The notes under the pieces were generated by a model. The model was not told the origin of the DNA and did no database searches. It saw nothing but the letters and a program-made list of their open reading frames with translations. DNA of 29,697 nucleotides from a virus. The DNA is taken from IMG/VR virus record IMGVR_UViG_3300045999_004989, positions 1 through 29,697 of that record; one strand, given 5' to 3'. Positions 16,110 through 29,563 of the stretch are shown piece by piece (the stretch's first letter is position 1; every line of letters begins with the position of its first letter). Position numbers and translations under genes: made by a program.

Positions 16110-16123
16110 ATTCATCCCTGAAT
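16110..16123 (-). promoter_or_regulatory. GGGA-loop hairpin over the tape measure ribosome binding site
   Basis: On the transcript this reads ATTCA-GGGA-TGAAT, a perfect 5-base-pair stem with a GGGA loop. It covers the Shine-Dalgarno of the tape measure gene and the stop codon of the frameshift product. Ribosomes finishing the chaperone would open it, giving coupling. It belongs to a set of GGA-loop hairpins in this window. Confidence 0.45.
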
Positions 16124-16435
16124 TGGCGTGTTCAACTTCATCAGCTCGGCCATGATCTGATCGTTCGTCTGTTCGGGCTTGACCACGCTCGGGATGAATG
16201 CCGCCTCGTCTGGGAGGTCATGCTTCTTGTAGTTCCCAGACGAGGCCATGATCACCCTGCACAGTCTGGCCGTTTGCCCCCACGGGTCAGGCAGCGGCCA
16301 CCTCTGATCAAATGCGTACCATTCGGCGATCTCCGCGCTGTCAACCTCCTGCAACAGCCGCTTAACGCTCATCCCCAGCGTCGCCGCTAGGCGGAAGTAG
16401 AACCTCCGCTCTGGGCGGTTTCGGAACCTTCCCCC
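16112..16435 (-). CDS. T-domain of the tail assembly chaperone GT, made by -1 frameshift
   Basis: This is the downstream frame of the gpG/gpGT pair. Recognisable sequence begins before any good start codon (RFYFRLAATLGMSVKRLL, then VDSAEIAEWYAFDQRWPLP). This pattern matches the lambda gpT-type / DUF4035-like extension. It has no ribosome binding site of its own, and its first ATG lies inside the conserved region. Hence it is probably translated by a -1 shift from the 16387-16758 frame, near GGGGGAA at 16435-16429. The resulting GT protein would be about 215 residues. In lambda, gpG and gpGT bind tail tube subunits and the tape measure protein before assembly. The coordinates mark the extension only. 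Confidence 0.78.
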   Translation of the reverse strand, partial: GGRFRNRPERRFYFRLAATLGMSVKRLLQEVDSAEIAEWYAFDQRWPLPDPWGQTARLCRVIMASSGNYKKHDLPDEAAFIPSVVKPEQTNDQIMAELMKLNTPIQG

Positions 16436-16758
16436 AGGGCATCCACTGCCTCCTGCGTGAAGGCGTTCAGCTTCCAGCCGGCCTCGAAGAGGCGATTGAT
16501 CACAACCGAAGACTTCTTGCCGAGAATGTCGGCTTCGTCGTCGTTGAAGAGCCGCTCGCCGTCCTCGTCGCACAGGGCGAGCAGGAGGAAGCGAATGCGG
16601 AACGCCTTCATCTTCTGATCGGCGTAGGACTCCTCGAACCTGTCCCGGTCGGTGCCGGTGAGCACGCGGAGATACACGTCGCCCTTCCACTCGGGGACGG
16701 CGACCTTCTCCCTGCGAACGTCGTCGGCGGCTAGGATGCTTTTTCGATCAAGTGCCAT
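16387..16758 (-). CDS. Tail assembly chaperone (gpG-like)
   Basis: A 123-residue acidic helical protein between the tube genes and the tape measure gene, the canonical position of lambda gpG. Typical stretches are VPEWKGDVYLRVLTGTDRDR, ESYADQKMKAFRIRFLLLAL, CDEDGERLFNDDEAD and INRLFEAGWKLNAFT. The ATG at 16758 follows GAAGAGA. The last residues (GSETAQSGGSTSA) are low-complexity, as expected where the frame is normally left by ribosomal frameshifting. Its stop lies 46 bases downstream of the proposed slip site. It should act with the GT form as a chaperone for tube and tape measure assembly and be absent from the finished virion. Confidence 0.85.
   Translation of the reverse strand: MALDRKSILAADDVRREKVAVPEWKGDVYLRVLTGTDRDRFEESYADQKMKAFRIRFLLLALCDEDGERLFNDDEADILGKKSSVVINRLFEAGWKLNAFTQEAVDALGEGSETAQSGGSTSA
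16429..16435 (-). promoter_or_regulatory. Candidate -1 frameshift slip site, GGGGGAA
   Basis: In the gpG frame the codons are CTG GGG GAA; a one-base backward slip gives GGG GGA AGG, which enters the T frame. The P-site Gly codon re-pairs perfectly, but A-site GAA to GGA is imperfect, so this is not a textbook X XXY YYZ heptamer. It is the best run within the region where both frames are open. Confidence 0.5.
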
Positions 16759-16789: not shown

Positions 16790-16803
16790 CGGCATCCTTG
16801 CCG
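16790..16803 (-). promoter_or_regulatory. AGGA-loop hairpin in the gpG leader
   Basis: On the transcript CGGCA-AGGA-TGCCG forms a 5-base-pair stem with an AGGA loop in the 46-base gap before the chaperone gene. A second GGA (TTTGGAGTAG) follows before the ribosome binding site. It is a member of the GGA-loop hairpin set. Confidence 0.4.
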
Positions 16804-17190: not shown

Positions 17191-17520
17191 TTAGGCGACC
17201 CGCCAAGTCGCGTTGCCCTTGATGAGATCGCCGACGGTGCCGCCCACGGTCGACGCCGTGAGGGTGGCGTTGCCGCTGAAGCTGACCGGGCCTGCGATGC
17301 TGATCGCAGCCGACTGCGTCGTGATGACGGTCGTGGCGATGTAGTCGCAGGAGATTTCCCGCTGCACGAACGTGGGGACGAACTCTCGCCGGCCGCCAGC
17401 GGGGATGCCGAGATGCGACCCGTCGGCATTGTCGATCTGGTCGTTGACATTGAAGCTCGTGATCGTCAGGGTCTGAGCGCCGTAGGTCAACGTCACGCCC
17501 ATCGCAGCAACACCGGCCAT
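17191..17520 (-). CDS. Tail tube-like protein 1
   Basis: A 109-residue beta-rich protein (VTLTYGAQTLTITSFNVNDQ, REISCDYIATTVITTQS, GDLIKGNATWRVA) with a strong AAGGAGG ribosome binding site before ATG 17520. It is paired with a similar 121-residue protein 20 bases downstream. High-level expression signals and position before the chaperones suit a major tail protein. Which of the two builds the tube is not decidable from sequence. The ribosome binding site sits in the loop of a small GCGC stem (17524-17537). Confidence 0.7.
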   Translation of the reverse strand: MAGVAAMGVTLTYGAQTLTITSFNVNDQIDNADGSHLGIPAGGRREFVPTFVQREISCDYIATTVITTQSAAISIAGPVSFSGNATLTASTVGGTVGDLIKGNATWRVA

Positions 17521-17523
17521 ATT

Positions 17524-17537
17524 GCGCCTCCTTGCGC
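17524..17537 (-). promoter_or_regulatory. Hairpin presenting the tail protein 1 ribosome binding site in its loop
   Basis: On the transcript GCGC-AAGGAG-GCGC forms a 4-base-pair GC stem with the Shine-Dalgarno as the six-base loop, placing a GGA in the loop as in other leaders of this window. The stem is short, so stability alone is weak evidence. Confidence 0.35.
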
Positions 17538-17544
17538 TAAAGTC

Positions 17545-17970
17545 TTATTCGGTAGCTTCCGACCACCGAATCTGAAACAGTTGTCGAACCTCGTATGCGG
17601 GCGGGAGCTGGGCTCCCACGGCTGCCGGGTCCAGATAGTCATCCGTCTCCGACACGAGCCGTATATCACTTATTGTAACGCCCGCGATGGTGCCGGTGCG
17701 TCCATCCAAGGCGAGACGAACCTCGTCGGCAAGCTCGCGGGCAACGTCGTAGTAGAGCGCCCAGGAGGCGATCTGGAGATGCACGATCGGCTGGTACATC
17801 GGGCCGGCGAGGTGGGCCTCGCGGGTGATGTTGTTCCGCTTGTAGATGCAGAACGGCAGGACGGCGTTTTTCGGCACCGCGATCGGGTAGACCTGAAAAC
17901 CGACCAGCCTCGCCACCTCCGGCGAGGTGATGAGCCTCTGGAAAACGTGTTTTTCTGGGGAGATGATCAC
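17545..17970 (-). CDS. Tail completion / tail terminator protein
   Basis: A 141-residue protein starting at GTG 17970, overlapping the previous stop as GTGA. The body fits the gp17/DUF3168-type tail completion family: a short helical start (HVFQRLITSPEVARLVG), then VYPIAVPKNAVLPFCIYKR, then VHLQIASWALYYDVARELAD and VRLALDGRTGTIAGVTI, ending in a beta strand (YEVRQLFQIRW). Such proteins cap the tail so that it can join the head. The order head closure, gp10-like protein, this gene, then tube proteins is the standard siphophage neck cassette. Confidence 0.8.
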   Translation of the reverse strand: MIISPEKHVFQRLITSPEVARLVGFQVYPIAVPKNAVLPFCIYKRNNITREAHLAGPMYQPIVHLQIASWALYYDVARELADEVRLALDGRTGTIAGVTISDIRLVSETDDYLDPAAVGAQLPPAYEVRQLFQIRWSEATE

Positions 17971-18704
17971 TGCGTGAGCCTCGCCAGCGTGTTTTCGATG
18001 GCTCCCTTGAGCGTGTTGAACACAGCCCCCTGCTGCTCGCCGATGGTCTTCTCCATAGCGTGCGATGCGGGCATGGCCCCATACGTCTCGCCTGGGTGCA
18101 GTGTGACCGGGTGCATCTTGCCGTTCGTGTGCCCGAAGTCGTGCGGATACCCCTTGCCCATGCCGGCCTGCCTCGTGGCCTCGTTGATGCTGCCCATGAG
18201 GAAGTAGTAGCCCTTCGACATGTTCGCGAACTGCTGGTCGTTCGCTGACGAATGCCGGCGCATCTTCCCATTGATCATCTGGTGGACGTTGACGTAGGTG
18301 CGCCGCCCTTTAGTCCCAGGCTTCCTACGGTCGCTGCCGAACTCGACTAACCACGCCGCGTTCCCCGATTCTGCGCCCTCGCGGCTGCCTGCCGACCCTG
18401 ACTGCCAGGGGCCGACGATCGCCACCGTCGCGGCGTCGTAAGTCTTGGTCTTGATTCTGACGGACTTCTTCAAATTGCCGGTGACATTGCGGACTTTCGA
18501 CTGATAGCCCTTCTTGATGTGCTCTGCGGCCTTCCTGACGGCGGCCTCGAGCGCTCTCGGCTCGCCCATCTTCGCGGCGAGCATCTGCAACTCCTCCGCC
18601 AGCTCGCGGATGCCCGCGGTTTTGATTGTGACGAACCCCTCGGCCAGCGACTTGCCGGTCGAGCCGCCAAACGTCCTCGGCGATCCCTGCCCCTGCGTAA
18701 TCAT
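17967..18704 (-). CDS. HK97 gp10-like neck protein
   Basis: A 245-residue protein with an ATGA overlap at its start (18704) and a GTGA overlap at its end. The family pattern is present: GIRELAEELQMLAAKMG, AVRKAAEHIKKGYQSKV, TGNLKKSVRIK, AAWLVEFGSDRRKPGT and the C-terminal HAMEKTIGEQQGAVFNTL. It is longer than the usual roughly 130-160 residues because of an insertion at about residues 130-205 (a His/Gly/Met-rich stretch including HPVTLHPGE). HK97 gp10-like proteins act at the head-tail junction or tail completion. The insertion is unexplained. Confidence 0.82.
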   Translation of the reverse strand: MITQGQGSPRTFGGSTGKSLAEGFVTIKTAGIRELAEELQMLAAKMGEPRALEAAVRKAAEHIKKGYQSKVRNVTGNLKKSVRIKTKTYDAATVAIVGPWQSGSAGSREGAESGNAAWLVEFGSDRRKPGTKGRRTYVNVHQMINGKMRRHSSANDQQFANMSKGYYFLMGSINEATRQAGMGKGYPHDFGHTNGKMHPVTLHPGETYGAMPASHAMEKTIGEQQGAVFNTLKGAIENTLARLTQ

Positions 18705-19021
18705 GTCGCGTCCTCCCTCGCCAGTATCTCATGGATCGAGCGGGTCTCTCGCTCAAGAACGCTAGAAATCTCCATCACGCGGCCCCTCCAGAGGAGCCGG
18801 TGCTGGTGATTTAGGCCGGGGAAGAACCTGATCCGAACGCGGTGCGTCACGATCGCGCCAGCCTGCTGGGCAGCGAAGTAGTCGCTGGCCCTAACGCCCA
18901 TGATGCTGGCGTAGACCGTGGCCTCGTCCACCCAGGTCAGCGTCGTCTCGCCGAAGGAACTCTGCTGCTCCACGGGCTTCTGGATCGTGACCCGCTCGCG
19001 CATCGTGCCCGAATTGATCAT
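18701..19021 (-). CDS. Head closure (head-tail joining) protein
   Basis: A 106-residue protein of the phage head-tail joining type (SPP1 gp16 / Phage_H_T_join). The signature runs RERVTIQKP, FGETTLTWVDEATVYASIMG, RASDYFAAQQ, VTHRVRIRFFPGLNHQHRLL, WRGRVMEISSV. It closes the packaged head and docks the tail. I favour ATG 19021, since family members begin a few residues before RERVTIQ and GGGGTG sits just upstream. GTG 19027 would instead give the GTGA overlap used elsewhere here. The two starts differ by two residues. Confidence 0.85.
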   Translation of the reverse strand: MINSGTMRERVTIQKPVEQQSSFGETTLTWVDEATVYASIMGVRASDYFAAQQAGAIVTHRVRIRFFPGLNHQHRLLWRGRVMEISSVLERETRSIHEILAREDAT

Positions 19022-19023
19022 GG

Positions 19024-19353
19024 TCACCCCATCCAGAGGGCGGTGTACGAACCCGTGCCGGACGGCGCAGAGACCGTGATCGTCGTTGTAACTGGCAGCA
19101 CGGCCACGCGGCCGGCGGCCACGTTGAAGCTGCCAGCCAGCCGCAGGACGCTCGTGCCGGTGTTCTTGACCACCAGCGTCGAGAGCGGCGTCGCCCCGAC
19201 GATCTGAACGGCGGCTGTGCCGACGCTGCCGTTGATCGTCTGAGCGCTCGTCAGCGACGGGGAAATGTGCTCGGACAGCGAGCCGATCGTGAGCGAAGTG
19301 TCACTCGAGTCGTGGTAGACGGCGTCGATGTCGATGCGGGCCTTTACGGTCAT
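19024..19353 (-). CDS. Small beta-rich virion-region protein, unknown
   Basis: A 109-residue protein from ATG 19353 (ATGA overlap with the connector gene). It is Thr/Ser/Val-rich and beta-type (ARIDIDAVYHDSSDTSLTI, STLVVKNTGTSVLRLAG, VAVLPVTTTITVSAPSGTGS). Its place between the connector and head closure genes is unusual for the standard neck cassette. I do not recognise it; a small decoration or neck accessory protein is plausible. Confidence 0.65.
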   Translation of the reverse strand: MTVKARIDIDAVYHDSSDTSLTIGSLSEHISPSLTSAQTINGSVGTAAVQIVGATPLSTLVVKNTGTSVLRLAGSFNVAAGRVAVLPVTTTITVSAPSGTGSYTALWMG

Positions 19354-19991
19354 CGGTAAACCCCCATGCTGGCCGCGGCCAGGAGCGTATCGAACGTCTG
19401 CGGCACAGAAACGGGTGCCCCCGTGACCGCCGGCTGCCTCGTGTCGAACCAGTGGGCCACGAGCAGGCAAATCAAGTGCTTCACCACGGGCGGCGCGCTC
19501 TGCCCGTCGTCGCCGTAGCCCGCCGAATACCGCACAGTGACCGAATTCTCGTCGCCGCGGGTCGCCGGCCACGACCGTGCCCACTGCGGGTAAATCCGCC
19601 CAGGCAGGACGCTGGCGTCCACTTGGAAGTCGCCGTTCGCGCTCGTAAGCGTGCCGTAGGTGCCGTCGCCGTTACGGTGGGTCACCGTGATCGACCTGTC
19701 CAGAAGCGGCATGCGAGGCAGGATGATCGCCCAGACGGGAAACAGGTCGTACTTGGCCTCCCACACGGTCGTGCAGATCGTGATGTCAAGAACGTCCTCG
19801 ACATACTGCCTCGCCACGGCGATGAGACCCTGGACGTAGAGGTTGTCCACATCGGTATCCACCCGGCAATGCTGCTTCGCCGTCGACAGGCTGACCGGCT
19901 CCACGGCCGGGTTCGTAATGCGCCGCAGGCTGCGAAACGGCGTAATCGTCGCCGTCGGCCTCTGCGGCGTGCCGAAGACAATCTGATCCAT
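19350..19991 (-). CDS. Head-tail connector, phiE125 gp8-like
   Basis: A 213-residue protein beginning one base after the preceding stop (TAA then ATG 19991). Family hallmarks are EPVSLSTAKQHCRVD (residues 31-45), LYVQGLIAVARQYVEDVL (51-68) and a late VVKHLICLLVAHWFDTRQP (helix). HK97 gp6 / phiE125 gp8-type proteins form the adaptor ring below the portal. Position before the head closure gene fits. Confidence 0.85.
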   Translation of the reverse strand: MDQIVFGTPQRPTATITPFRSLRRITNPAVEPVSLSTAKQHCRVDTDVDNLYVQGLIAVARQYVEDVLDITICTTVWEAKYDLFPVWAIILPRMPLLDRSITVTHRNGDGTYGTLTSANGDFQVDASVLPGRIYPQWARSWPATRGDENSVTVRYSAGYGDDGQSAPPVVKHLICLLVAHWFDTRQPAVTGAPVSVPQTFDTLLAAASMGVYR

Positions 19992-20183
19992 TTATCGCCT
20001 CTTCTTCGGTGTGTGCTTCACGGCCACTTCCGCACGCTCGACGGCCTCGGAGACAGCCTCGGCGGTCTCGACCTCTTCGATCAGCCCGCGGCGGATGAGG
20101 AGGTCGCACATCCCGGCCGCCCAGTCCTCAAAGACTTGCCCCTTCTCATAGCAGTCGAAATTCTGGAGAACGCGGATTTTCAA
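19992..20183 (-). CDS. Small protein before the connector gene, TTG start
   Basis: A 63-residue protein. The TTG at 20183 overlaps the glycosyltransferase stop as TTGA, with GGGGGCAGG upstream. The first part (LKIRVLQNFDCYEKGQVFED, then MCDLLIRRGLIEEV) resembles the short proteins that often precede gp6-like connectors, starting with a strand and containing 'W...L...GLIE'. The tail is Glu/Ala-rich and ends in KKRR. A longer upstream start would run out of frame through the glycosyltransferase and is not supported. Function unknown. Confidence 0.65.
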   Translation of the reverse strand: MKIRVLQNFDCYEKGQVFEDWAAGMCDLLIRRGLIEEVETAEAVSEAVERAEVAVKHTPKKRR

Positions 20184-20908
20184 TGAACCTGCCCCCAGGC
20201 GTTTTCCGGTGCCTTCTGGCCGTTCGTCCAGTATTCCGTCGTATGCTGCTGCACCTTGCCGCCGTCGGCCGTCCTCGAGGGCCATGTGACCATCAGCTCG
20301 GCGTGGCCGACGCTGACGTGCGTAGCTAGTCCAAGCGTGTTCCCGCAGGCGGCCCACGACTTCCAGAACGAGATGTCCTCGTCGGTATGGCCGCCCGTCC
20401 ACTCTCCCTGGTCATTCGCCCTGGCGAGGAACCAGGGCTTCTTCATCTTCTTGAGGCCGGAGGTCCGCAGGAATGTGAGCCCGAAGTGGGCCGTCTCCAC
20501 TGGCTGCACGACTTTGTTGAAGAAGTCGCCATCCACCGTCGTCTTCTGGTCAACGTCACTGCCGGCCAGGGCGAACATCACCGCGTTCGCCTCCCGCTTC
20601 GTCTGAAGCGGAGCGATGGCGTCGTAGCCAGAGTGCAGGAGCAGTGCAAGGAGCGCCTCGACCGTCTTCGCGTTGAAGACCGTGTCATAGTCGATGGTCA
20701 GAATCACGTCGTGCGTGTCGACGACCTGCTCCATCGCTCGCTGAAGGCACTGGCCCCAAAAGGCACCTGTCACCTTGATGGGACTGATGCCATGCGGGGC
20801 CAGTGCCGACGAGACACAGAAGAAGTTGTCTGTGAACCCAAGCCGCGGGGTCGACATGACCGCCGCGACTTTGATTTCCGCTTCGACGTTACCGACTCTG
20901 ATCAGCAT
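20180..20908 (-). CDS. GT-A type glycosyltransferase in the virion gene cluster
   Basis: A 242-residue enzyme. The nucleotide-sugar/metal motif is LTIDYDTVF (D73-x-D75, residues 70-78). Later motifs expected in GT2-like enzymes are FLRTSGLKKM, TDEDISFWKSWAACG (about 175-189, acidic 'ED' base region) and VSVGHAEL with H202 as possible metal ligand. It should transfer a sugar to a protein or other acceptor; donor and acceptor are unknown. No signal peptide or membrane span is visible, so it is cytoplasmic. Placement between capsid and neck genes suggests a virion protein as acceptor (inference). ATG 20908 has a GGAG site 6 bases upstream that is paired in a hairpin (20913-20930). Confidence 0.75.
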   Translation of the reverse strand: MLIRVGNVEAEIKVAAVMSTPRLGFTDNFFCVSSALAPHGISPIKVTGAFWGQCLQRAMEQVVDTHDVILTIDYDTVFNAKTVEALLALLLHSGYDAIAPLQTKREANAVMFALAGSDVDQKTTVDGDFFNKVVQPVETAHFGLTFLRTSGLKKMKKPWFLARANDQGEWTGGHTDEDISFWKSWAACGNTLGLATHVSVGHAELMVTWPSRTADGGKVQQHTTEYWTNGQKAPENAWGQVH

Positions 20909-20912
20909 GGAT

Positions 20913-20930
20913 CGCTCCGTATGTGGAGCG
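20913..20930 (-). promoter_or_regulatory. Hairpin sequestering the glycosyltransferase ribosome binding site
   Basis: On the transcript CGCTCC-ACATAC-GGAGCG is a perfect 6-base-pair stem. Its 3' arm contains the GGAG Shine-Dalgarno, with ATG 20908 four bases after the stem. Folding would lower initiation unless opened by ribosomes or a protein. Confidence 0.6.
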
Positions 20931-20932
20931 GG

Positions 20933-20968
20933 CGCGCATCCATGCGCCTTTGTCGGCCATCATGGCCG
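20933..20968 (-). promoter_or_regulatory. Two tandem hairpins between decoration and glycosyltransferase genes
   Basis: On the transcript CGGCCA-TGA-TGGCCG (20968-20954) is followed by GCGCA-TGGA-TGCGC (20947-20934). The second loop carries GGA. Neither is followed by a T-run, so they are not typical terminators. They may stabilise the upstream mRNA end or bind a regulator. Confidence 0.4.
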
Positions 20969-20984
20969 TCCCGCAGTTCGGGAA

Positions 20985-21410
20985 TCAGCCCTTGACCCAG
21001 CCGATGACGCCAGCGTCGGCCGCCGTCACCGGAGCCTCTTCGCCACGCGACAGACGAGCCGTCACCACCGTGTTCACGCTGACCGCGGGGGTCGCCGTGA
21101 CCTTGAGGTAACGCTTCTTCGCCTTGGTGTCGACATCGAGCTTCACGATGGCAGCCGACGCGGTGTCGGACACAGCCGGGATCGTGAAGTCGGTGCCGCC
21201 GACGAGGCCCGACACGTTCGAGTAGGACACGTTGTCGTCCGACTCTTCGACCTTCAGAACGCTGGCGAACGCCGTCGAGGCGTTGCTCGCCCGCATCACG
21301 GTCACGCTCGCGTGGTCGTAGCCGCGGGTGTCGATCGTCAGGGTCACTGCGCTGGTGCCGACGGCCGTGGGGACGGAGCCGACAACCTTGTCGTTCTGCG
21401 AATGGATCAT
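20985..21410 (-). CDS. Probable capsid decoration/accessory protein
   Basis: A 141-residue protein right after the major capsid gene. It begins MIHSQNDKVVGSVPTAVGTS and continues as a beta-rich body (VTLTIDTRGYDHASVTVM, VLKVEESDDNVSYSNVSG, KLDVDTKAKKRYLKVTAT) ending in TARLSRGEEAPVTAADAG. I have seen this pattern repeatedly beside HK97-type capsid genes in environmental phages. The single-domain beta architecture and position suggest a decoration or head-stabilising protein. AAGGAG lies about 12 bases upstream of ATG 21410. Confidence 0.7.
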   Translation of the reverse strand: MIHSQNDKVVGSVPTAVGTSAVTLTIDTRGYDHASVTVMRASNASTAFASVLKVEESDDNVSYSNVSGLVGGTDFTIPAVSDTASAAIVKLDVDTKAKKRYLKVTATPAVSVNTVVTARLSRGEEAPVTAADAGVIGWVKG

Positions 21411-21448: not shown

Positions 21449-22801
21449 TCACGACGCCGCGGACTTGAGGGCAACCACGGGGCCGGCGGTCGTGTTGTCG
21501 CCGAGCGAGTGATGAACCACGTCGAACCGCATCGTGCCCTGAAGCAGGAGCTGATCGGTCGTGGCGTAGACTTGGTCGTACATCCGCACTGCGAAGTCGC
21601 GGCGACGAGCGTAGATGCTGGAGAGCCCCAGGTTCGCGAAGAGAACCTTGACCTTGCCGGGATCGGCACCGAGCGTGCCGTCCATGACATGGACGAGGTT
21701 CACGGGGTAGCCCATGAACTGCTCGCTCACGCCACCACCGACCTGCTCGACGGTGTTGCCGCCGGCCGCGTAGCGGAGGCGGGCCATCGAGGCCGCGAAG
21801 CCGGCCGGCGAGATGTACCACGCTGCACCCTGGCGGGCGTAGAGCGGCATCTTGCCGATGGCCTTCACGAAGTCGGTCACGGTCAGGGTCTCGAAGCCCG
21901 TGGCACCGGCACCGGCGGTCAGAACGCTGGCCGTGTGCGTGCCGTCGTTGACCTTCGGCACAACGCCGTAGATGCCGCCGTAGGTGGACGTGCCGTCGCC
22001 GAGCCAGCCGCACATGTCCTGCTTGAGCGACAGCGACGTGCTGAACTCGACAGCGACGGCGTCGGCGATGCTTACAAGAGCATCCTCCACCACCTCCGAA
22101 CTAAGCCTCGTGCCGCATGCCAATTTTTTGGCAATGAGCTGCACGTTCGCGTAGGTCGGCTCACTTTCGTTCACCGCGGTCCCTTCCCCGACAAAATACG
22201 CGCTGGTGCCCGTGACTCTCTTGGGGATCACGAGGGTGTCCCGGGTCATCGTCACCTTCTCGACGTTGCTCGCCGCGAAGGTGCCGTAGTTTTCGACGAG
22301 CCGGATCACGCGAGCGGCGAACTCCTCGGGGACAAGGGCACCGCCAGAAGCGTTGCTGTTCTCGCCCATCGCGCGGTTCTCGACGCCGTGATCCTTGCAC
22401 CACCGGAGGTCTTCGGCGTTCTTGAAGATGTGAGCCCGGAGCCACCGGCCGCAGCGGTACGCGCTCTCGACGGCCTCGGGGCCATCGTTGAACGCCCGCA
22501 GGCTGGTGTGATGGGGCTGGATCGAGCGAATCTCGACCTTCTTCTCCTCGACCTTCGCGGCGACTTCAGCCACGGGAGCCGGGGCAGGGGCGGCCTTCTC
22601 GACCACGGCCCGCAGTTCGGCTTCCTTCGCGGCGATCCGCTCCTCGAAGTCGAGGGAGGTCTTCAGGTCGTCGGCCTGGGTGCCGAGCGAGATGAGTTCC
22701 TTGGTCTGCTCGGCCGAGCGATCCTCGATACCGGACAGTTCGGTCATCCGAGCGGCGACAGCCGCTGCACGTTCCTGAAGACGCTTGAGATTCGATGCCA
22801 T
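21449..22801 (-). CDS. Major capsid protein, HK97 family
   Basis: A 450-residue protein. I choose ATG 22801 because AAGGAG lies 10 bases upstream and the longer in-frame reading to 22915 runs through a structured leader. Residues about 1-90 are a helical, charged delta/scaffold domain (LKRLQERAAAVAARMTELSG, EERIAAKEAELRAVVEKA) that HK97-type proteases remove. The coat body begins near residue 143 (GENSNASGGALVPEEFAARV). Typical blocks follow: TLVIPKRV, VGEGTAVNES, LIAKKLACGTRLSSEVVEDA, and the late YPVNLVHVMDGT and MRFDVVHHS. Capsid, protease and portal form a complete HK97 head cassette. Confidence 0.92.
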   Translation of the reverse strand: MASNLKRLQERAAAVAARMTELSGIEDRSAEQTKELISLGTQADDLKTSLDFEERIAAKEAELRAVVEKAAPAPAPVAEVAAKVEEKKVEIRSIQPHHTSLRAFNDGPEAVESAYRCGRWLRAHIFKNAEDLRWCKDHGVENRAMGENSNASGGALVPEEFAARVIRLVENYGTFAASNVEKVTMTRDTLVIPKRVTGTSAYFVGEGTAVNESEPTYANVQLIAKKLACGTRLSSEVVEDALVSIADAVAVEFSTSLSLKQDMCGWLGDGTSTYGGIYGVVPKVNDGTHTASVLTAGAGATGFETLTVTDFVKAIGKMPLYARQGAAWYISPAGFAASMARLRYAAGGNTVEQVGGGVSEQFMGYPVNLVHVMDGTLGADPGKVKVLFANLGLSSIYARRRDFAVRMYDQVYATTDQLLLQGTMRFDVVHHSLGDNTTAGPVVALKSAAS

Positions 22802-22950: not shown

Positions 22951-24627
22951 CTACTGACCCTGACGTGCGCCGTGCAACTGAGTCCGAAGGATTGTCGCCT
23001 TCAGGTTCGCGAGCTTCACAGCGATGTCGACGCTTTCCTGCTCCGCACGCATGTCCTCGGCGGGCTTTTCCTCAACCGGAGCAGGCTCCGGCTTCTTTTC
23101 TTCTTGGCTCATACGCTCCTCGGGAATGATCCACAGTTTGCACACGGCGTCGGCCGCGATGGCACCTTGAACGATGTAGCACCGGCCCTCTTCGCCCTCG
23201 AAGAAGACGCAGTTGCTGCACTTCACGCCATCCTTGGCAAACGGATTCTCAGTCATGTAGTGAGCGTCGTTCTGGCTCCAGGGGCCGTACTCCTCGGCGA
23301 TGCCCTCATACGACTCGGCCAGGGCGAGGTTCGCAGCCGACAGCGTGTCCGCGTACTCACCTTCGACGCCGTCTTCGCCGATGTCACGTTTGCCGCTCGC
23401 CCGCTCGATCTGCGAGACCTTGGCCTCGCTCCACCGCCACGCCGGATCGCCGCCCCACAGCATCCAGGCGGTGTACCCTGGCGTTTCCTCGCCCTTATTC
23501 GACCAGCCGGGTCTCTTGTCGACCTTGTGGCGTCGGAACCACGCTCGCATCTCGCGAACGTGCTCGGGCGTCAGTTCTTCGCGTGCGGCGATCTTGCCAG
23601 CACGGGCCACCGTCTCAGGCTTCAGCCCGTCGCCCGACCGGCCCTCCTCGTGCAGGGCCAGACCTCGCTTTGCGGCGGCTGCCATGCCCGCGGTGGGCTT
23701 CAGGTTTACGTCGGAGGCGGCGCGGGTCTCCTCAGAGGGAGCCTCGGGGGTGGTTTCAGCAGAAGAGTCCACCGACGGGGCTGCCTCATCGGACGATGAG
23801 GCAGCACGCCGATCCACCCACTTCTCGCCAGCGTCGCCGCCTGCCAGTTGCCACTCGATCCAGGCCGGCGAGCCCGACCAGCCCGTCACTTTCGCCGCCA
23901 AACACCGCTCGTAGACGCCCGAGAGGTACGAAACCTCCTCGACACTGACGATTTCGCGGTTCGCGACTCGCTCGGCGATGCAGAGAAGGCGAGAATCGAT
24001 GTTTTCGTGCCTCTGAGCCAGCTTCAGACCTCGTTTTGACGCATTCGCCATCGTCTGGATGGGCCTGAACGACTCGCCGAGAGCCATTTCGATGGCTCGG
24101 CGACTCACAACCACGCTGGAGGAGTCATATGCAGGCCGAACCACGGGCCCAACGTCCTCGAGCAGGCCGATCGCTTTCACTTCACGCCTGCGAATGCCAC
24201 GCTGACTGTCCGTCGACCACGAATCACCACCGTCACGCTTGATGGCGAACGCGAAACTGGACCCGACAACCGTCCGATCCTTCACCCATTCGACCACGTC
24301 GCGGCCGATGGAGGTGTTTTCGTTCGGCGCGATCTCGTAGCGAAGCCCATACGGGTCTTTCTTGAGTCGCATAGTACCATTTCCGGTACGTCCGAGCAGC
24401 AGGTTGCGGTCGTGATTGAACACGCCGATGACATCGGGGTTCTCGGCGAGCACTTCGTCGAACGCATTCGGGTGAATCGTCTCGATGAAGCCACCCAGGT
24501 TGCGACTTTCGGCGTTAAAGACGGCGGCGTAGCCCGAAATCACGGGCTTTTTCTCGCCGTTACCCATGTCTCGGTACTCGATCGTCGCGTCCGAAACCGT
24601 CGTGCGCCGCTCAATCTCGTTGCTCAT
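22951..24627 (-). CDS. Prohead maturation protease with long duplicated and four-cysteine extension
   Basis: A 558-residue protein, ATGA-coupled to the ferritin-like gene. Residues 1-190 are an HK97-type prohead serine protease (U35/S78): VISGYAAVFN, HPNAF, NHDRNLLLGR (H72) and the catalytic GSSFAFAI (S124). It cleaves the capsid delta domain during maturation. The family usually has 180-250 residues; the remainder is an added extension. Residues about 193-272 and 316-402 are two diverged copies of one roughly 85-residue domain (K-R-G-L start, IAxRE, GxxxxW.LWGGD / WQLAGGD). Residues 470-496 hold C-x2-C-x9-C-x12-C (C470, C473, C483, C496), reminiscent of HiPIP or other small metal sites. The C-terminus is Glu/Pro/Lys-rich, then helical. 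GGTGA precedes ATG 24627. Confidence 0.88.
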   Translation of the reverse strand: MSNEIERRTTVSDATIEYRDMGNGEKKPVISGYAAVFNAESRNLGGFIETIHPNAFDEVLAENPDVIGVFNHDRNLLLGRTGNGTMRLKKDPYGLRYEIAPNENTSIGRDVVEWVKDRTVVGSSFAFAIKRDGGDSWSTDSQRGIRRREVKAIGLLEDVGPVVRPAYDSSSVVVSRRAIEMALGESFRPIQTMANASKRGLKLAQRHENIDSRLLCIAERVANREIVSVEEVSYLSGVYERCLAAKVTGWSGSPAWIEWQLAGGDAGEKWVDRRAASSSDEAAPSVDSSAETTPEAPSEETRAASDVNLKPTAGMAAAAKRGLALHEEGRSGDGLKPETVARAGKIAAREELTPEHVREMRAWFRRHKVDKRPGWSNKGEETPGYTAWMLWGGDPAWRWSEAKVSQIERASGKRDIGEDGVEGEYADTLSAANLALAESYEGIAEEYGPWSQNDAHYMTENPFAKDGVKCSNCVFFEGEEGRCYIVQGAIAADAVCKLWIIPEERMSQEEKKPEPAPVEEKPAEDMRAEQESVDIAVKLANLKATILRTQLHGARQGQ

Positions 24628-26725: not shown

Positions 26726-28243
26726 CTACAGCACCATGAGGTTTGGTTCGTCGGTATTGCCGTGGGTTTCGCTCGAGGCAATGCCCAGGGCCATGATCAG
26801 AGAAACTGCACCGTCGATGCGGGCCGTGGAATGACTGTGCTTCTTGGTCGGCTTGATATTCCCGGCGTCGTCTACCTTCACCTGCACATTCGACATCTGC
26901 CACGCCAAGACGGGGTTGCCGCCGTGACGCAGTTTCTTGGAGATTGTCAGCGTCTCGAGCAGCTTCGACGGCGCTGATAAACTCGCAAAACCTTGTCCAA
27001 ACGGCTTAACGTCGATTCCCTCCGCCGTGAGCTGCGTCGTCAGATGCACTGCGTTCCAGCGGTCAATCGCAATAGACCGAACCGCATTCTTCTCGCAAAA
27101 CGAGAGAATGTAGTCGCGGACCACGTCGTAATCCGTTATGTCGCCATCTGTTAGTGTAACAAAACCGTCCTTCGCCCAGGCTTGATACGGCACCCTGTCC
27201 TCGCGACCACGCTTGATCGCGTTCTCCTCTGGGATGAAGAAGTGAGCGTGGATGTCGTAGGTGCCGTCGACATCCGGCCAGACCGCCACGAACGCCGTCG
27301 TGTCGAAGGTGCTGGCGAGGTCGACGCCGCACCAGCACGGCCGCCCCGCCGTCGGCCTGAGCGGAGCGTTGTTGGCGTCCCAGGCACCATGCCTGATCCA
27401 CTTGGTTTCCGATTTTTGCCACTGGTTCAAGTGGAGGGTTCGGAAAACGACTTCGTCGGTGGGTGAGGACTTGGCTTTTTCGGCGAATTGGCGGAAGTAT
27501 TCTGGCTTGGAGGTGATCCCGTAGTTTGGGTTCGCCTTCTTCCACGTCTCCTCGGCGAATGGGTCATCTTCGGGGTCGGCGGCGTAGATGCAGGGGAGGA
27601 AGGACTCGTCCTTGAGGACGCCGTCTCGCACCTTGATGGCTCGCTGCCAGTCCTTGTAGCAGGGGCCGTCCATGTCTGTGCCGGCCGTTGTGATATAGAT
27701 CGTCAGAGGCTGCCGGCGGGCACCCATGCCCGTCTCGAGCACGTCGACCAGCTCGCGATCTCGGAATACATGAAACTCGTCTATGAGGACCACCGAGGGG
27801 TTCAGGCCGTGCTTGGTCGAACTCTCGGAGCTGACAGTTATCATCGTCGACTTCGTTGACTCGACGACGATGGAGTTTCGGTACACTTTTGCTCGCCGAA
27901 GCAGGCTCGGGCACGACTCCAGCAAGTGCTTCGCAGCAGTGTGCAATATGCCGGCCTGTGATCTGTCACCGGCCGCGACGACGATCTCAGACCCAGGCTC
28001 GTTGTCCATGAAAAGGCAATAAAGCCCTAATGCCGCACACATTTGGCTTTTTCCTGATTTTCTCGGCAGTGCGAGAAAAGCGCGGCGATACTGCCTGAGT
28101 CCCTCTGGCGTGAATGTAAAAAGCAGCTTGTCGAAGAAGTCCTGTTGCCACGGCATTAACTCGAATGGCTTGTTGGCAAAGTCGCCCTTGGAGTGGCGCA
28201 GCATGCCGCAGAACTGGGTGAACAGGCTCGGCTCTGGTGTCAT
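26726..28243 (-). CDS. terL: Large terminase subunit
   Basis: A 505-residue packaging motor. I choose ATG 28243 (ATGA overlap with the endonuclease gene); an in-frame extension to 28411 is Arg/Gly-rich shadow sequence. ATPase motifs are Walker A PRKSGKS (residues 60-66) and Walker B VVLIDEF (151-157). The C-terminal RNase H-like nuclease has its acidic residues at D308 (CGVDLAST), D394 (AIDRWNA) and D477 (ARIDGAV). It matches Terminase_1-type subunits that serve HK97-like phages. It translocates DNA into the prohead and cuts concatemers, working with the small subunit at 29084-29563. All key residues are present. Confidence 0.95.
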   Translation of the reverse strand: MTPEPSLFTQFCGMLRHSKGDFANKPFELMPWQQDFFDKLLFTFTPEGLRQYRRAFLALPRKSGKSQMCAALGLYCLFMDNEPGSEIVVAAGDRSQAGILHTAAKHLLESCPSLLRRAKVYRNSIVVESTKSTMITVSSESSTKHGLNPSVVLIDEFHVFRDRELVDVLETGMGARRQPLTIYITTAGTDMDGPCYKDWQRAIKVRDGVLKDESFLPCIYAADPEDDPFAEETWKKANPNYGITSKPEYFRQFAEKAKSSPTDEVVFRTLHLNQWQKSETKWIRHGAWDANNAPLRPTAGRPCWCGVDLASTFDTTAFVAVWPDVDGTYDIHAHFFIPEENAIKRGREDRVPYQAWAKDGFVTLTDGDITDYDVVRDYILSFCEKNAVRSIAIDRWNAVHLTTQLTAEGIDVKPFGQGFASLSAPSKLLETLTISKKLRHGGNPVLAWQMSNVQVKVDDAGNIKPTKKHSHSTARIDGAVSLIMALGIASSETHGNTDEPNLMVL

Positions 28244-29025
28244 GCGACTCTCGACTTCGCCGGATACCGCCGATTCGCTATGTACGGGCTGATGCCTGCG
28301 TACTGCCTGAAGTTGCCCTTGCCGACCAGATAGAGCGGCCTGCCTGTTGCCCGAAATGCGGCCACCTTGTCCTTTGACCTGCCGAAGAACTCGCCCTTCA
28401 CCTCGATCCACAGGTCGCCAAGCGGGCCGAGGTCGACCTTGAAGTCAGGCGTGTATCGCGTGTGCTCGTCCAGCCGGAACGACTCGGGCTCGTACTGCCA
28501 AGACAAGCCGTCGCGATCAAGCCCGTGAGCCACGGCGACCTCCCACGAAGACCGCATCCAGATTCTTCCTTGAACTCCTTCGTACAGCCGGTTCAGGTTG
28601 GCGCGGCTTCCGATGTCTCGCGCAGCAGCCTGCGACGACCGCTCGCGATGCAGGCAGCCGCACGACTGCGTGGTTCCGCGGCGAAGGCAGTGCTGATGGA
28701 TGACGCACGTCTCGCCGCAATCGCACAGACAGGAGACCGTTGGTCGCTTGCCGCTCTCGTATTTTGCGTCCTGAACTGCTACCAGCCGTCCGAAACGCTC
28801 GCCTGCTAGCACCGGCCTGCGACACTTCAAAGCGATGCCGTCGGCTCTTGCGCACCCGCAGGATGACGACAGGCGGCTCCGCATGTAGGCAGAGGGCACA
28901 ATTCGCTCGGTTCCGCAGTCGCACCTGCATTCAACCATTTGCCGACCAGACGAGTAGTCGCCATCCTTGATCGCCGTCCATCGGCCGTGCCGTTCGCCGG
29001 CCTTCACCTGTCGCCTTGCTGGCAT
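28240..29025 (-). CDS. Zinc-finger PD-(D/E)XK endonuclease, probable homing enzyme
   Basis: A 261-residue protein. ATG 29025 is preceded by GAGGGG at ideal spacing; a longer in-frame start at 29124 would overlap the small terminase. Residues 10-58 and 75-124 are two copies of a cysteine module: GERHGRWTAI...CRCDCG...SSCGC and GERFGRLVAV...CLCDCG...QSCGC (C33, C35, C37, C56, C58; C99, C101, C103, C122, C124). Such zinc modules precede the catalytic domain in many phage homing nucleases. The C-terminal domain has the PD-(D/E)XK core: SSWE (E162), YTPDF (D194) and WIEVKG (E208, K210). It splits terS from terL and couples to terL by ATGA. Cleavage has not been shown. Confidence 0.8.
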   Translation of the reverse strand: MPARRQVKAGERHGRWTAIKDGDYSSGRQMVECRCDCGTERIVPSAYMRSRLSSSCGCARADGIALKCRRPVLAGERFGRLVAVQDAKYESGKRPTVSCLCDCGETCVIHQHCLRRGTTQSCGCLHRERSSQAAARDIGSRANLNRLYEGVQGRIWMRSSWEVAVAHGLDRDGLSWQYEPESFRLDEHTRYTPDFKVDLGPLGDLWIEVKGEFFGRSKDKVAAFRATGRPLYLVGKGNFRQYAGISPYIANRRYPAKSRVA

Positions 29026-29083: not shown

Positions 29084-29563
29084 TCAACCACGCTTGGCGA
29101 GCAGAGCATCCATCGGATCGACAACCACCTTCACGGCTCCGTAGCCGAGGCGGGTTCGATCGCCGGGGGTCAGGCCGAGCACGGTCTCGAGGTGCCGAAG
29201 CGCCTCGCCGCACTCTTTTGCCTGCATTGCCATTGCCACTGGACGAGAGAATCGGATCGAGCCGTCGGGGGCCAGAACCTCAACGTAGGCTGAGTCGACC
29301 GCCTGGAGCTGCTGGGTCGCGTACTCCCACATAACGTAGGTCGTCGCGTACCTCGTGATGACGTGTTCGTCGGATTCGGCCAGGGTTCCCATGCCGTCCA
29401 GCCACGCCACAACACGGGAGAAAATCTCCTTCGCCCGAGGTTTCAGCCACTCGGCCGGCTGGATCGGGGCCGGCGGCGCGGCACCAAGCTCCTCGCGGTT
29501 CTTGGCGTGCTTGGAACCACGCATGGCGAGGATGTGTTTCGGCGTTGGGGGGCGGCCCTTCAT
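29084..29563 (-). CDS. terS: Small terminase subunit, P27 family
   Basis: A 159-residue protein that recognises phage DNA to start packaging. The P27-type pattern is clear: KGRPPTPKHILAMRGSKHAK at the start (basic, residues 2-21), PEWLKPRAKEIFSRVVAWL-like helix (38-55), LAESDEHVITRYATTYVMWE (61-80) and the terminal GLTPGDRTRLGYG (130-142). It is the first complete gene of the transcript. The ATG at 29563 has only a weak ribosome binding site, with the repeated TGTAGGC just upstream. The usual partner, the large subunit, is separated from it by the endonuclease gene. Confidence 0.9.
   Translation of the reverse strand: MKGRPPTPKHILAMRGSKHAKNREELGAAPPAPIQPAEWLKPRAKEIFSRVVAWLDGMGTLAESDEHVITRYATTYVMWEYATQQLQAVDSAYVEVLAPDGSIRFSRPVAMAMQAKECGEALRHLETVLGLTPGDRTRLGYGAVKVVVDPMDALLAKRG

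Follow-up and report, generated by a model that had tools for sequence, protein, structure and literature searches.

The window analysed here is a 29.7-kb virus record (29,697 nucleotides), and the genes that we read in it all lie on the minus strand, in the head-to-tail order typical of tailed phages. Its main features are the following.

29084-29563, minus strand: terminase small subunit (PHROG match)
22951-24627, minus strand: protease (PHROG match)
21449..22801, minus strand: major capsid protein (phrog_10, E 4.5e-39)
20985..21410, minus strand: jelly-roll protein of 141 aa, putative decoration or cement protein (phrog_5707, unknown function)
20180..20908, minus strand: glycosyltransferase (GT) gene with an ATG start, 242 aa, predicted GT-A fold
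19992..20183, minus strand: small gene of unknown function, 63 aa by the chosen start (phrog_2616, E 0.0057)
19350..19991, minus strand: head-tail adaptor Ad1 (phrog_442, E 9.3e-19; phrog_40, E 2.5e-17)
18701-19027, minus strand: head closure Hc1 (PHROG match)
17967-18704, minus strand: Neck1 (PHROG match)
17545-17970, minus strand: tail terminator (PHROG match)
17191..17520, minus strand: tail-region gene, 109 aa, in the tail-tube position, from which its identity is proposed (no PHROG match)
16387-16758, minus strand: tail assembly chaperone, two genes downstream of 17191..17520 (phrog_344)

The likely TTG start of the small gene at 19992..20183 overlaps the GT stop codon (TTGA). Two tail-region genes between the tail terminator and the chaperone have no PHROG family. 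The labels large terminase, portal and tape measure rest on size, place and sequence reading, and the first 369 aa of the 1889-aa gene product that we call tape measure by size and place gave no PHROG match. The window also carries dCMP deaminase and dNMP kinase genes. Beside the terminase genes lies an HNH-endonuclease-like gene (window 28240-28830; phrog_374, phrog_9019), possibly a homing endonuclease, and a fibre-like protein encoded at 1661-4603 has collagen-like G-x-y stretches in its N-terminal part.

The first-pass annotation of this DNA had described a GT-A enzyme with a D-x-D and an ED...H pattern in a place reserved for structural genes. The open frame at 20180-20908 is real, with 242 codons on the minus strand, and it does lie between the capsid and decoration-type genes on one side and the head-tail adaptor gene on the other. 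Plus-strand frame 1 of the same interval was ruled out as coding by an internal stop, and the overlapping plus-strand ORFs 20256-20606 and 20387-20995 are mechanical calls for which nothing speaks. The gene is under purifying selection (dN/dS of 0.07-0.17 against nine relatives). The two patterns correspond to the following codons, which are near-invariant in homologues.

20684..20692, minus strand: D73-Y74-D75 (DxD; proposed metal/nucleotide-sugar site; coordinates from the reading frame)
20375..20383, minus strand: D176-E177-D178, with D178 the proposed catalytic base (from conservation)
20303..20305, minus strand: H202, proposed metal ligand (from conservation)

The catalytic and metal-binding roles of these residues are assigned from general knowledge of GT-A enzymes. 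We counted conservation over 153 distinct homologous ORFs with a score >80 (154 aligned domains). All 152 aligned homologues with a residue at the site have D73 and D75, and H202 is kept in 148 of 148 homologous ORFs. D178 is kept in 149 of 150 and E177 in only 133 of 150; because E177 varies, the base is more likely to be D178. An ED-type acidic catalytic base is the rule in family GT2, and an acidic residue pair of this type, D176-x-D178, is found at the start of helix 177-187 in the GT model.

The fold search that the first-pass annotation had named as its test supports the assignment of the encoded protein as a GT-A-fold glycosyltransferase, as judged from a predicted structure (mean pLDDT 80.8) from which we infer its activity. 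Foldseek returned 136 PDB chains at E<=0.001, and the 50 best among them are mostly glycosyltransferases. The top match is 2c0n, protein A197 of STIV, whose PDB title is itself silent on function and which we take to be a GT-A glycosyltransferase; LH3, B4GALNT1 and COLGALT1 stand among the leading rows, and GalNAc-transferases are also listed. VIA-align gave Z 17.9 against 2c0n (rmsd 2.8 over 163 residues, 16% identity) and Z 17.1 against human LH3, and the top rows from BFVD include annotated phage glycosyltransferases. Although A197 is the best fold match, it is only distantly similar in sequence and belongs to an unrelated virus with an unrelated host. UDP-glucose pyrophosphorylases, which are nucleotidyltransferases, appear in the Foldseek list from rank 34, and because they share it the fold alone does not prove transferase chemistry. 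At the sequence level, the match to Pfam Glyco_trans_2_3 (E 1.4e-4) falls under the curated cut-off, with 22.2 bits for PF13632 (cut-off 27) and 12.3 for PF00535 (cut-off 23.3); because these scores are below the curated ones, we do not file the protein under CAZy GT2 or Glycos_transf_2. Its PHROG match is phrog_1574, of unknown function, a sequence search of the PDB gave no credible match, and a tblastn search of 50,697 records of isolate phages gave no match at E 0.01. Among viral stretches matching the pattern, a scan with the GT protein found relatives in 286 of 299, and a profile scan found a relative encoded in 331 of 367. The best 80 of these 331 relatives are all uninterrupted across the match, with L024 running off the contig end.

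The GT gene is nearly a core head-module gene in this uncultured tailed-phage group. The capsid gene lies upstream in 69 of the 72 unique GT-fetched contexts with >2 kb upstream (the misses are L136, L137 and L138), and the GT gene lies downstream in 83 of the 89 unique capsid-fetched contexts that extend 1.3 kb or more in that direction; as some contigs occur in both samples, the two counts are not independent. Six capsid contexts are without the GT gene (L149, L219, L253, L255, L260 and L285). The L219 contig is cut off, yet a GDP-mannose-dehydratase-like gene is already visible downstream of its capsid gene. L149, a member of the window's clade, is truly without the GT and decoration genes, and no GT is seen in the 3-6 kb downstream in the deeper capsid relatives L253, L255, L260 and L285. 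Because the GT gene is missing in L149 and in these four relatives, it is dispensable, and we keep in mind that a gene in a head module may act on something other than head proteins.

A sister clade with a 33-36% identical capsid protein has the GT domain at the C-terminal end of a ~380-390-aa protein, whose N-terminal part matched Methyltransf_11 above cut-off in the three fusions scanned (L216, L231, L243). In L231, L233 and L243 the decoration and GT genes are separated by a gene for GDP-mannose 4,6-dehydratase (PF16363, E at most 1.2e-115), and a cupin domain on the dehydratase passes its cut-off in L243 but falls short of it in L233. GDP-mannose dehydratase is found in 5 of 25 long contigs, namely 4 of 9 from the sister clade and 1 of 16 from the window's clade; in the latter contig (G015) the gene is far from the GT gene. 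In a further locus, what looks by eye like a second capsid gene (L224:6870-7931) is flanked by the decoration gene and the methyltransferase-GT gene. More distant matches include L135, where methyltransferase and GT-like sequence share one 661-aa protein ~0.8 kb after the capsid gene; L136, where an FkbM-methyltransferase-GT protein lies between a phrog_9953 major head protein that our capsid model does not match and an SU10-type adaptor gene; and L138, where genes for a fusion of a family-2 GT with a methyltransferase and for another glycosyltransferase precede an SU10-type adaptor gene. For L137, a distant GT-like match, no head context is visible. Because of L135, L136, L138 and the sister clade, the slot between capsid and connector can be said to hold glycan genes in several phage types, and the three distant loci suggest repeated recruitment of methyltransferase-GT fusions or GT clusters to this one slot. 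Searched against the 50,697 phage records, the methyltransferase-GT protein gave just three weak methyltransferase matches.

The first-pass annotation had proposed that the enzyme puts sugar on the capsid or decoration protein. The jelly-roll protein encoded at 20985-21410 is a predicted beta-sandwich (pLDDT 75). Row 7 of its Foldseek list is 3j4u_H (E 1.5e-4), from a Bordetella phage capsid secured by jelly-rolls, many other rows are discoidin or carbohydrate-binding modules, and its best VIA match is YomS (Z 9.2); a decoration role may fairly be read from this model. Nine loci of the window's clade on seven distinct contigs (L048, L049, L050, L068/L085, L079, L083/L084, L095) keep the GT gene without the decoration gene, with a capsid-to-GT gap of 134-144 bases, compared with 534-591 bases where both genes are present (1133 in L134, the exception). 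Because these nine loci keep the GT gene without it, the decoration protein is not an obligate partner, its candidacy as the only acceptor is weakened, and no single acceptor is fixed. Over the 72 loci with all genes, GT distances correlated with those of the decoration protein at 0.56 (Spearman), the capsid protein at 0.44, the overlapping small gene at 0.40 and the adaptor at 0.30, and when overlapping half-samples of these loci were drawn, the decoration protein came first in 498 of 500, a ranking that linkage confounds. L243, which was in the wrong frame in alignment A5, was excluded from alignment A6. On these comparisons the capsid and decoration proteins are both plausible candidate acceptors.

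The first-pass proposal is thus supported in part: virion glycosylation is the best explanation given the tie to the head module, the lack of a membrane segment and the methyltransferase and sugar-nucleotide partners in the sister clade. We consider it reasonably probable that the GT glycosylates a virion head protein, with activity, donor, acceptor and benefit all inferred from the genes and models described; the shielding of virions or surface binding that the annotation put forward would be candidate benefits. A soluble, metal-dependent GT-A glycosyltransferase would be made during head assembly and would transfer sugar onto an exposed part of the capsid protein, the adjoining jelly-roll protein or both. 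The nucleotide sugar donor would probably be supplied by the host in the window's clade and, in some relatives, may partly be made by the phage GDP-mannose 4,6-dehydratase.

Many phage glycosyltransferases modify a host surface glycan, and the GT fold also matches the wall-teichoic-acid transferases TarP and TarS and the rhamnosyl transferase RmlT. The enzyme could thus act on the host surface in serotype conversion or superinfection exclusion and not on the virion, and the available part of PMC12619734 says that GTs of temperate phages alter host serotypes. We regard this as unlikely: the GT has no membrane segment by hydropathy (maximum 19-residue Kyte-Doolittle value of 1.28), no flippase-type gene is found among its identified neighbours, the gene keeps to the late head module, and in the sister clade the methyltransferase and dehydratase are encoded among the structural genes. 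A tail or fibre protein, for instance the product of the collagen-like fibre gene at 1661-4603, is a distinctly less probable acceptor. The GT fold resembles the collagen glycosyltransferases LH3 and COLGALT1, the fibre product has its G-x-y stretches, and mycobacteriophage tail-tube subunits carry glycans according to the same portion of PMC12619734, but the GT gene lies ~15 kb away from the fibre gene and is linked to the capsid gene. Because GT-A folds are alike across many acceptors, the fold does not identify the substrate.

Glycosylation of modified bases in the phage DNA, as protection against host nucleases, would fit the dCMP deaminase and dNMP kinase genes of the window, and virus GTs can hypermodify DNA (Pyle 2024, as cited in the accessible text of PMC12619734). 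It is nonetheless quite improbable, since the GT gene sits in the head module and PF00303 (the thymidylate-synthase family) matched none of 25 long relatives, whereas its control matched in 9 of 14 genomes; the control of a Tet_JBP search matched in no genome, so that search carries no weight. That the GT has no catalytic activity, or has a role in virion structure or assembly instead, as Pfam matches under cut-off and a placement among structural genes might suggest, is scarcely credible given that its catalytic-type residues are almost invariant and that methyltransferase and dehydratase partners recur.

The proposed head glycosylation by an enzyme of the structural operon has a parallel in the cluster O mycobacteriophages. 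Corndog gp35-gp38 comprise an O-methyltransferase, two glycosyltransferases and a putative GlcNAc-transferase, which the authors suggest may add methyl groups and glycans to the capsid; all four enzymes were detected in infected cells (PMC4351075, available in part). Compared by description, the likeness to our phages is that methyltransferase and GT genes lie within the virion structural operon. In the part of that source available, however, the Corndog genes lie between portal and protease, whereas those described here lie between capsid and adaptor, and that part mentions neither an RNA element nor CsrA of the kind described below. Freeman 2023 reported that capsid and tail-tube subunits of mycobacteriophages carry glycans, which are described as a shield against anti-phage responses (via the excerpts of PMC12619734 and PMC11256854), and in the related mycobacteriophage Maravista the excerpt of PMC11256854 places the GT genes near the genome 3' end and not in the head module. 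Capsid glycosylation has therefore already been reported for mycobacteriophages; here the GT gene is nearly a core head gene of a lineage whose sister clade adds methyltransferase fusions and sugar-nucleotide genes, which suggests that virion glycosylation may be a basic trait of entire phage groups.

The 76-base gap between the decoration and GT genes is conserved across the clade and holds a structured RNA, which had escaped the earlier annotation. The RNA features are as follows.

20911..20973, minus strand: conserved structured RNA, a three-way junction plus a ribosome-binding-site hairpin (covariance model R1)
20934..20947, minus strand: hairpin 2, GCGC-ANGGAN-GCGC, candidate CsrA/RsmA-type site (from conservation)
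20914..20929, minus strand: hairpin GCUCC-loop-GGAGC, with the Shine-Dalgarno sequence of the GT gene as its 3' arm (the stem hardly varies, the loop does)
17524..17537, minus strand: second CsrA-type hairpin, whose loop GGA is the Shine-Dalgarno sequence of gene 17191-17520 (in 47 of 51 distinct upstream sequences; shuffled fraction 0.01)
16110..16123, minus strand: ANGGAN hairpin, kept less often in relatives, at the ribosome-binding site of the tape-measure-labelled 1889-aa gene

The window strand at the GT leader element folds better than shuffles (z -2.85), and the covariance model, of 63 positions, matches 97 of 100 hand-chosen loci; the contigs of the three others (L140, L189 and L209) end 12, 474 and 455 bases after the capsid match, respectively. 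The element occurs once per record in 17 of 17 records of the window's clade and in 0 of 9 of the sister clade. Over 72 distinct RNA sequences, in an alignment that was fitted to R1 and leans towards it, pairing is intact in 99.4% of cells over the 15 pairs, and sliding the 3' partners lowers pairing to 31-52%. The mean majority is 0.99 at paired positions and 0.82 at unpaired ones, and the GGAG at the GT ribosome-binding site lies in the next hairpin in 72 of 72. Three pairs vary on both sides, as many as only 1 of 500 shuffles reaches, but the covariation score at a slide of +3 is the same as that observed (0.040) and further pair types are no more frequent than in shuffles (245 of 500); covariation is modest because most pairs never vary. 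Rfam gave no match at gathering score in the window and none at E<=1 in 20850-21060. In L149, which is without the GT gene, a 401-base search gave a match at 14.9 bits (region L149:3032-3190) that is absent from a larger search (E<=1 over 497,747 bases) and whose stretch folds no better than shuffles (z 0.18), so this locus keeps at most a decayed copy.

An ANGGAN hexaloop on a stem near the GGA of a ribosome-binding site is the canonical site of CsrA/RsmA. Hairpin 2 carries ANGGAN in 67 of the 72 distinct elements at >=3 pairs and in 64 at >=4. In four of the remaining five (L151, L172, L095, L141) the motif has moved to hairpin 1, and the fifth, L083, has it in neither hairpin and keeps a plain GGA in hairpin 1, so that the two hairpins pooled carry it in 71 of 72. 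Such a swap is expected if a GGA-reading protein, and not a fixed sequence, is what is selected. An ANGGAN hairpin precedes the GT gene in 78 of 82 distinct upstream sequences across relatives and in 32 of 34 GT clusters at 85% identity; in the sister clade no such hairpin precedes it (0 of 22). On the coding strand of the window there are 9 ANGGAN hairpins with at least four pairs, where 2.5 would be expected, and on the other strand 0. Of these nine, four are no more than 50 bases ahead of a gene start (binomial P ~4e-4 over 26 starts, with a cut-off chosen post hoc). The hairpin before the tape-measure gene is present in 9 of 47 sequences at >=4 pairs and 25 of 47 at >=3, and one before the chaperone gene in 9 of 53; before nine other module genes an ANGGAN hairpin was found in 2 of 659 distinct upstream sequences (shuffled fractions 0.001-0.01). 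A further ANGGAN hairpin lies at or near a tail gene start (window 16790-16803, minus strand). GGA motifs near ribosome-binding sites are described as CsrA sites in the available part of PMC12038007.

The phages themselves encode a candidate reader. CsrA (PF02599, above cut-off) was found in 15 of 16 long relatives from the window's clade and in none of the 5 phages searched from the sister clade; the 29.7-kb window fragment gave no PF02599 match, and in G003 csrA lies ~40 kb from the GT gene. These phage proteins (L303-L316, from 12 phages) have 53-63 residues, with one of 87. CsrA contacts RNA through the Arg of a C-terminal R-x-E and the Leu before an N-terminal T/S-R. In the phage proteins R-x-E-L near the end and T-R near the start are each present in 14 of 14 loci from the 12 phages, and the residue preceding T-R is I, L or V. 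The RNA element and phage CsrA are co-distributed (Fisher P 8e-4, across two clades, so that the tests are not independent).

In the window's clade the structured RNA would probably restrain translation of the GT gene and the overlapping small gene by sequestering the ribosome-binding site and presenting a CsrA-type site, with phage CsrA, host CsrA or both as the reader. On these sequence patterns we give nearly even chances to phage CsrA reading the GT leader. Just short of evenly balanced, too, is the wider proposal of an uncultured phage lineage with its own CsrA regulon, in which CsrA would bind the leader RNA to restrain GT translation and would also act at the tail-gene hairpin. There is a somewhat smaller, still substantial chance that the leader is a mere intrinsic translation attenuator, that the ANGGAN hairpins are not CsrA sites and that phage CsrA targets host mRNAs such as those of CRISPR-Cas. 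Phage CsrA and the RNA share a single clade and their co-distribution may be ancestry, GGA is inherent in Shine-Dalgarno sequences, L083 is without an ANGGAN hairpin, I, L or V precedes T-R in the phage proteins, and Campa et al. found that phage CsrA homologues repress CRISPR-Cas mRNAs (via the text available of PMC12038007). Against such an attenuator, the ANGGAN before the GT gene is apart from the Shine-Dalgarno sequence and, where it has left hairpin 2, reappears in hairpin 1 in four elements, and the hairpin frequency at GT clusters far exceeds that before the nine other genes.

Phages encoding csrA are known: the accessible part of PMC7366521 counts 30 of them, and csrA lies between the portal and capsid genes in Burkholderia phage JC1 (PMC9144972, in part) and is present in Vibrio phage vB_VneS_J26 (PMC12038007, in part). 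CsrA is encoded in these phages as in ours, but as far as the available portions of the three papers go, target sites in the phage's own late genes are proposed only here, and a literature search by title found no paper on CsrA as a regulator of late genes in the phage itself. The conserved leader RNA is a concrete candidate for such a target. If CsrA control through it is real, it would amount to post-transcriptional control within the phage late gene block, by which sugar coating and tail production could be timed or dosed apart from the upstream-encoded capsid protein.

Planctomycete hosts are probable. The planctomycete genomes G001 and G672 have four PF02599 matches each, and because these two genomes carry CsrA, host CsrA could also read the site, which, if true, would offer a possible link to the carbon state of the cell. 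One contig of a MAG labelled Planctomycetaceae carries the locus (L083), the contig itself being all phage. The GT profile matched 3 of 392 genomes of the planctomycete phylum, two of them weakly, and the capsid profile matched 28 of 396 genomes of a planctomycete order. Among the seven of these loci that we inspected, L294, from the same order, has capsid, decoration and protease genes together with a GT that is 41% identical.
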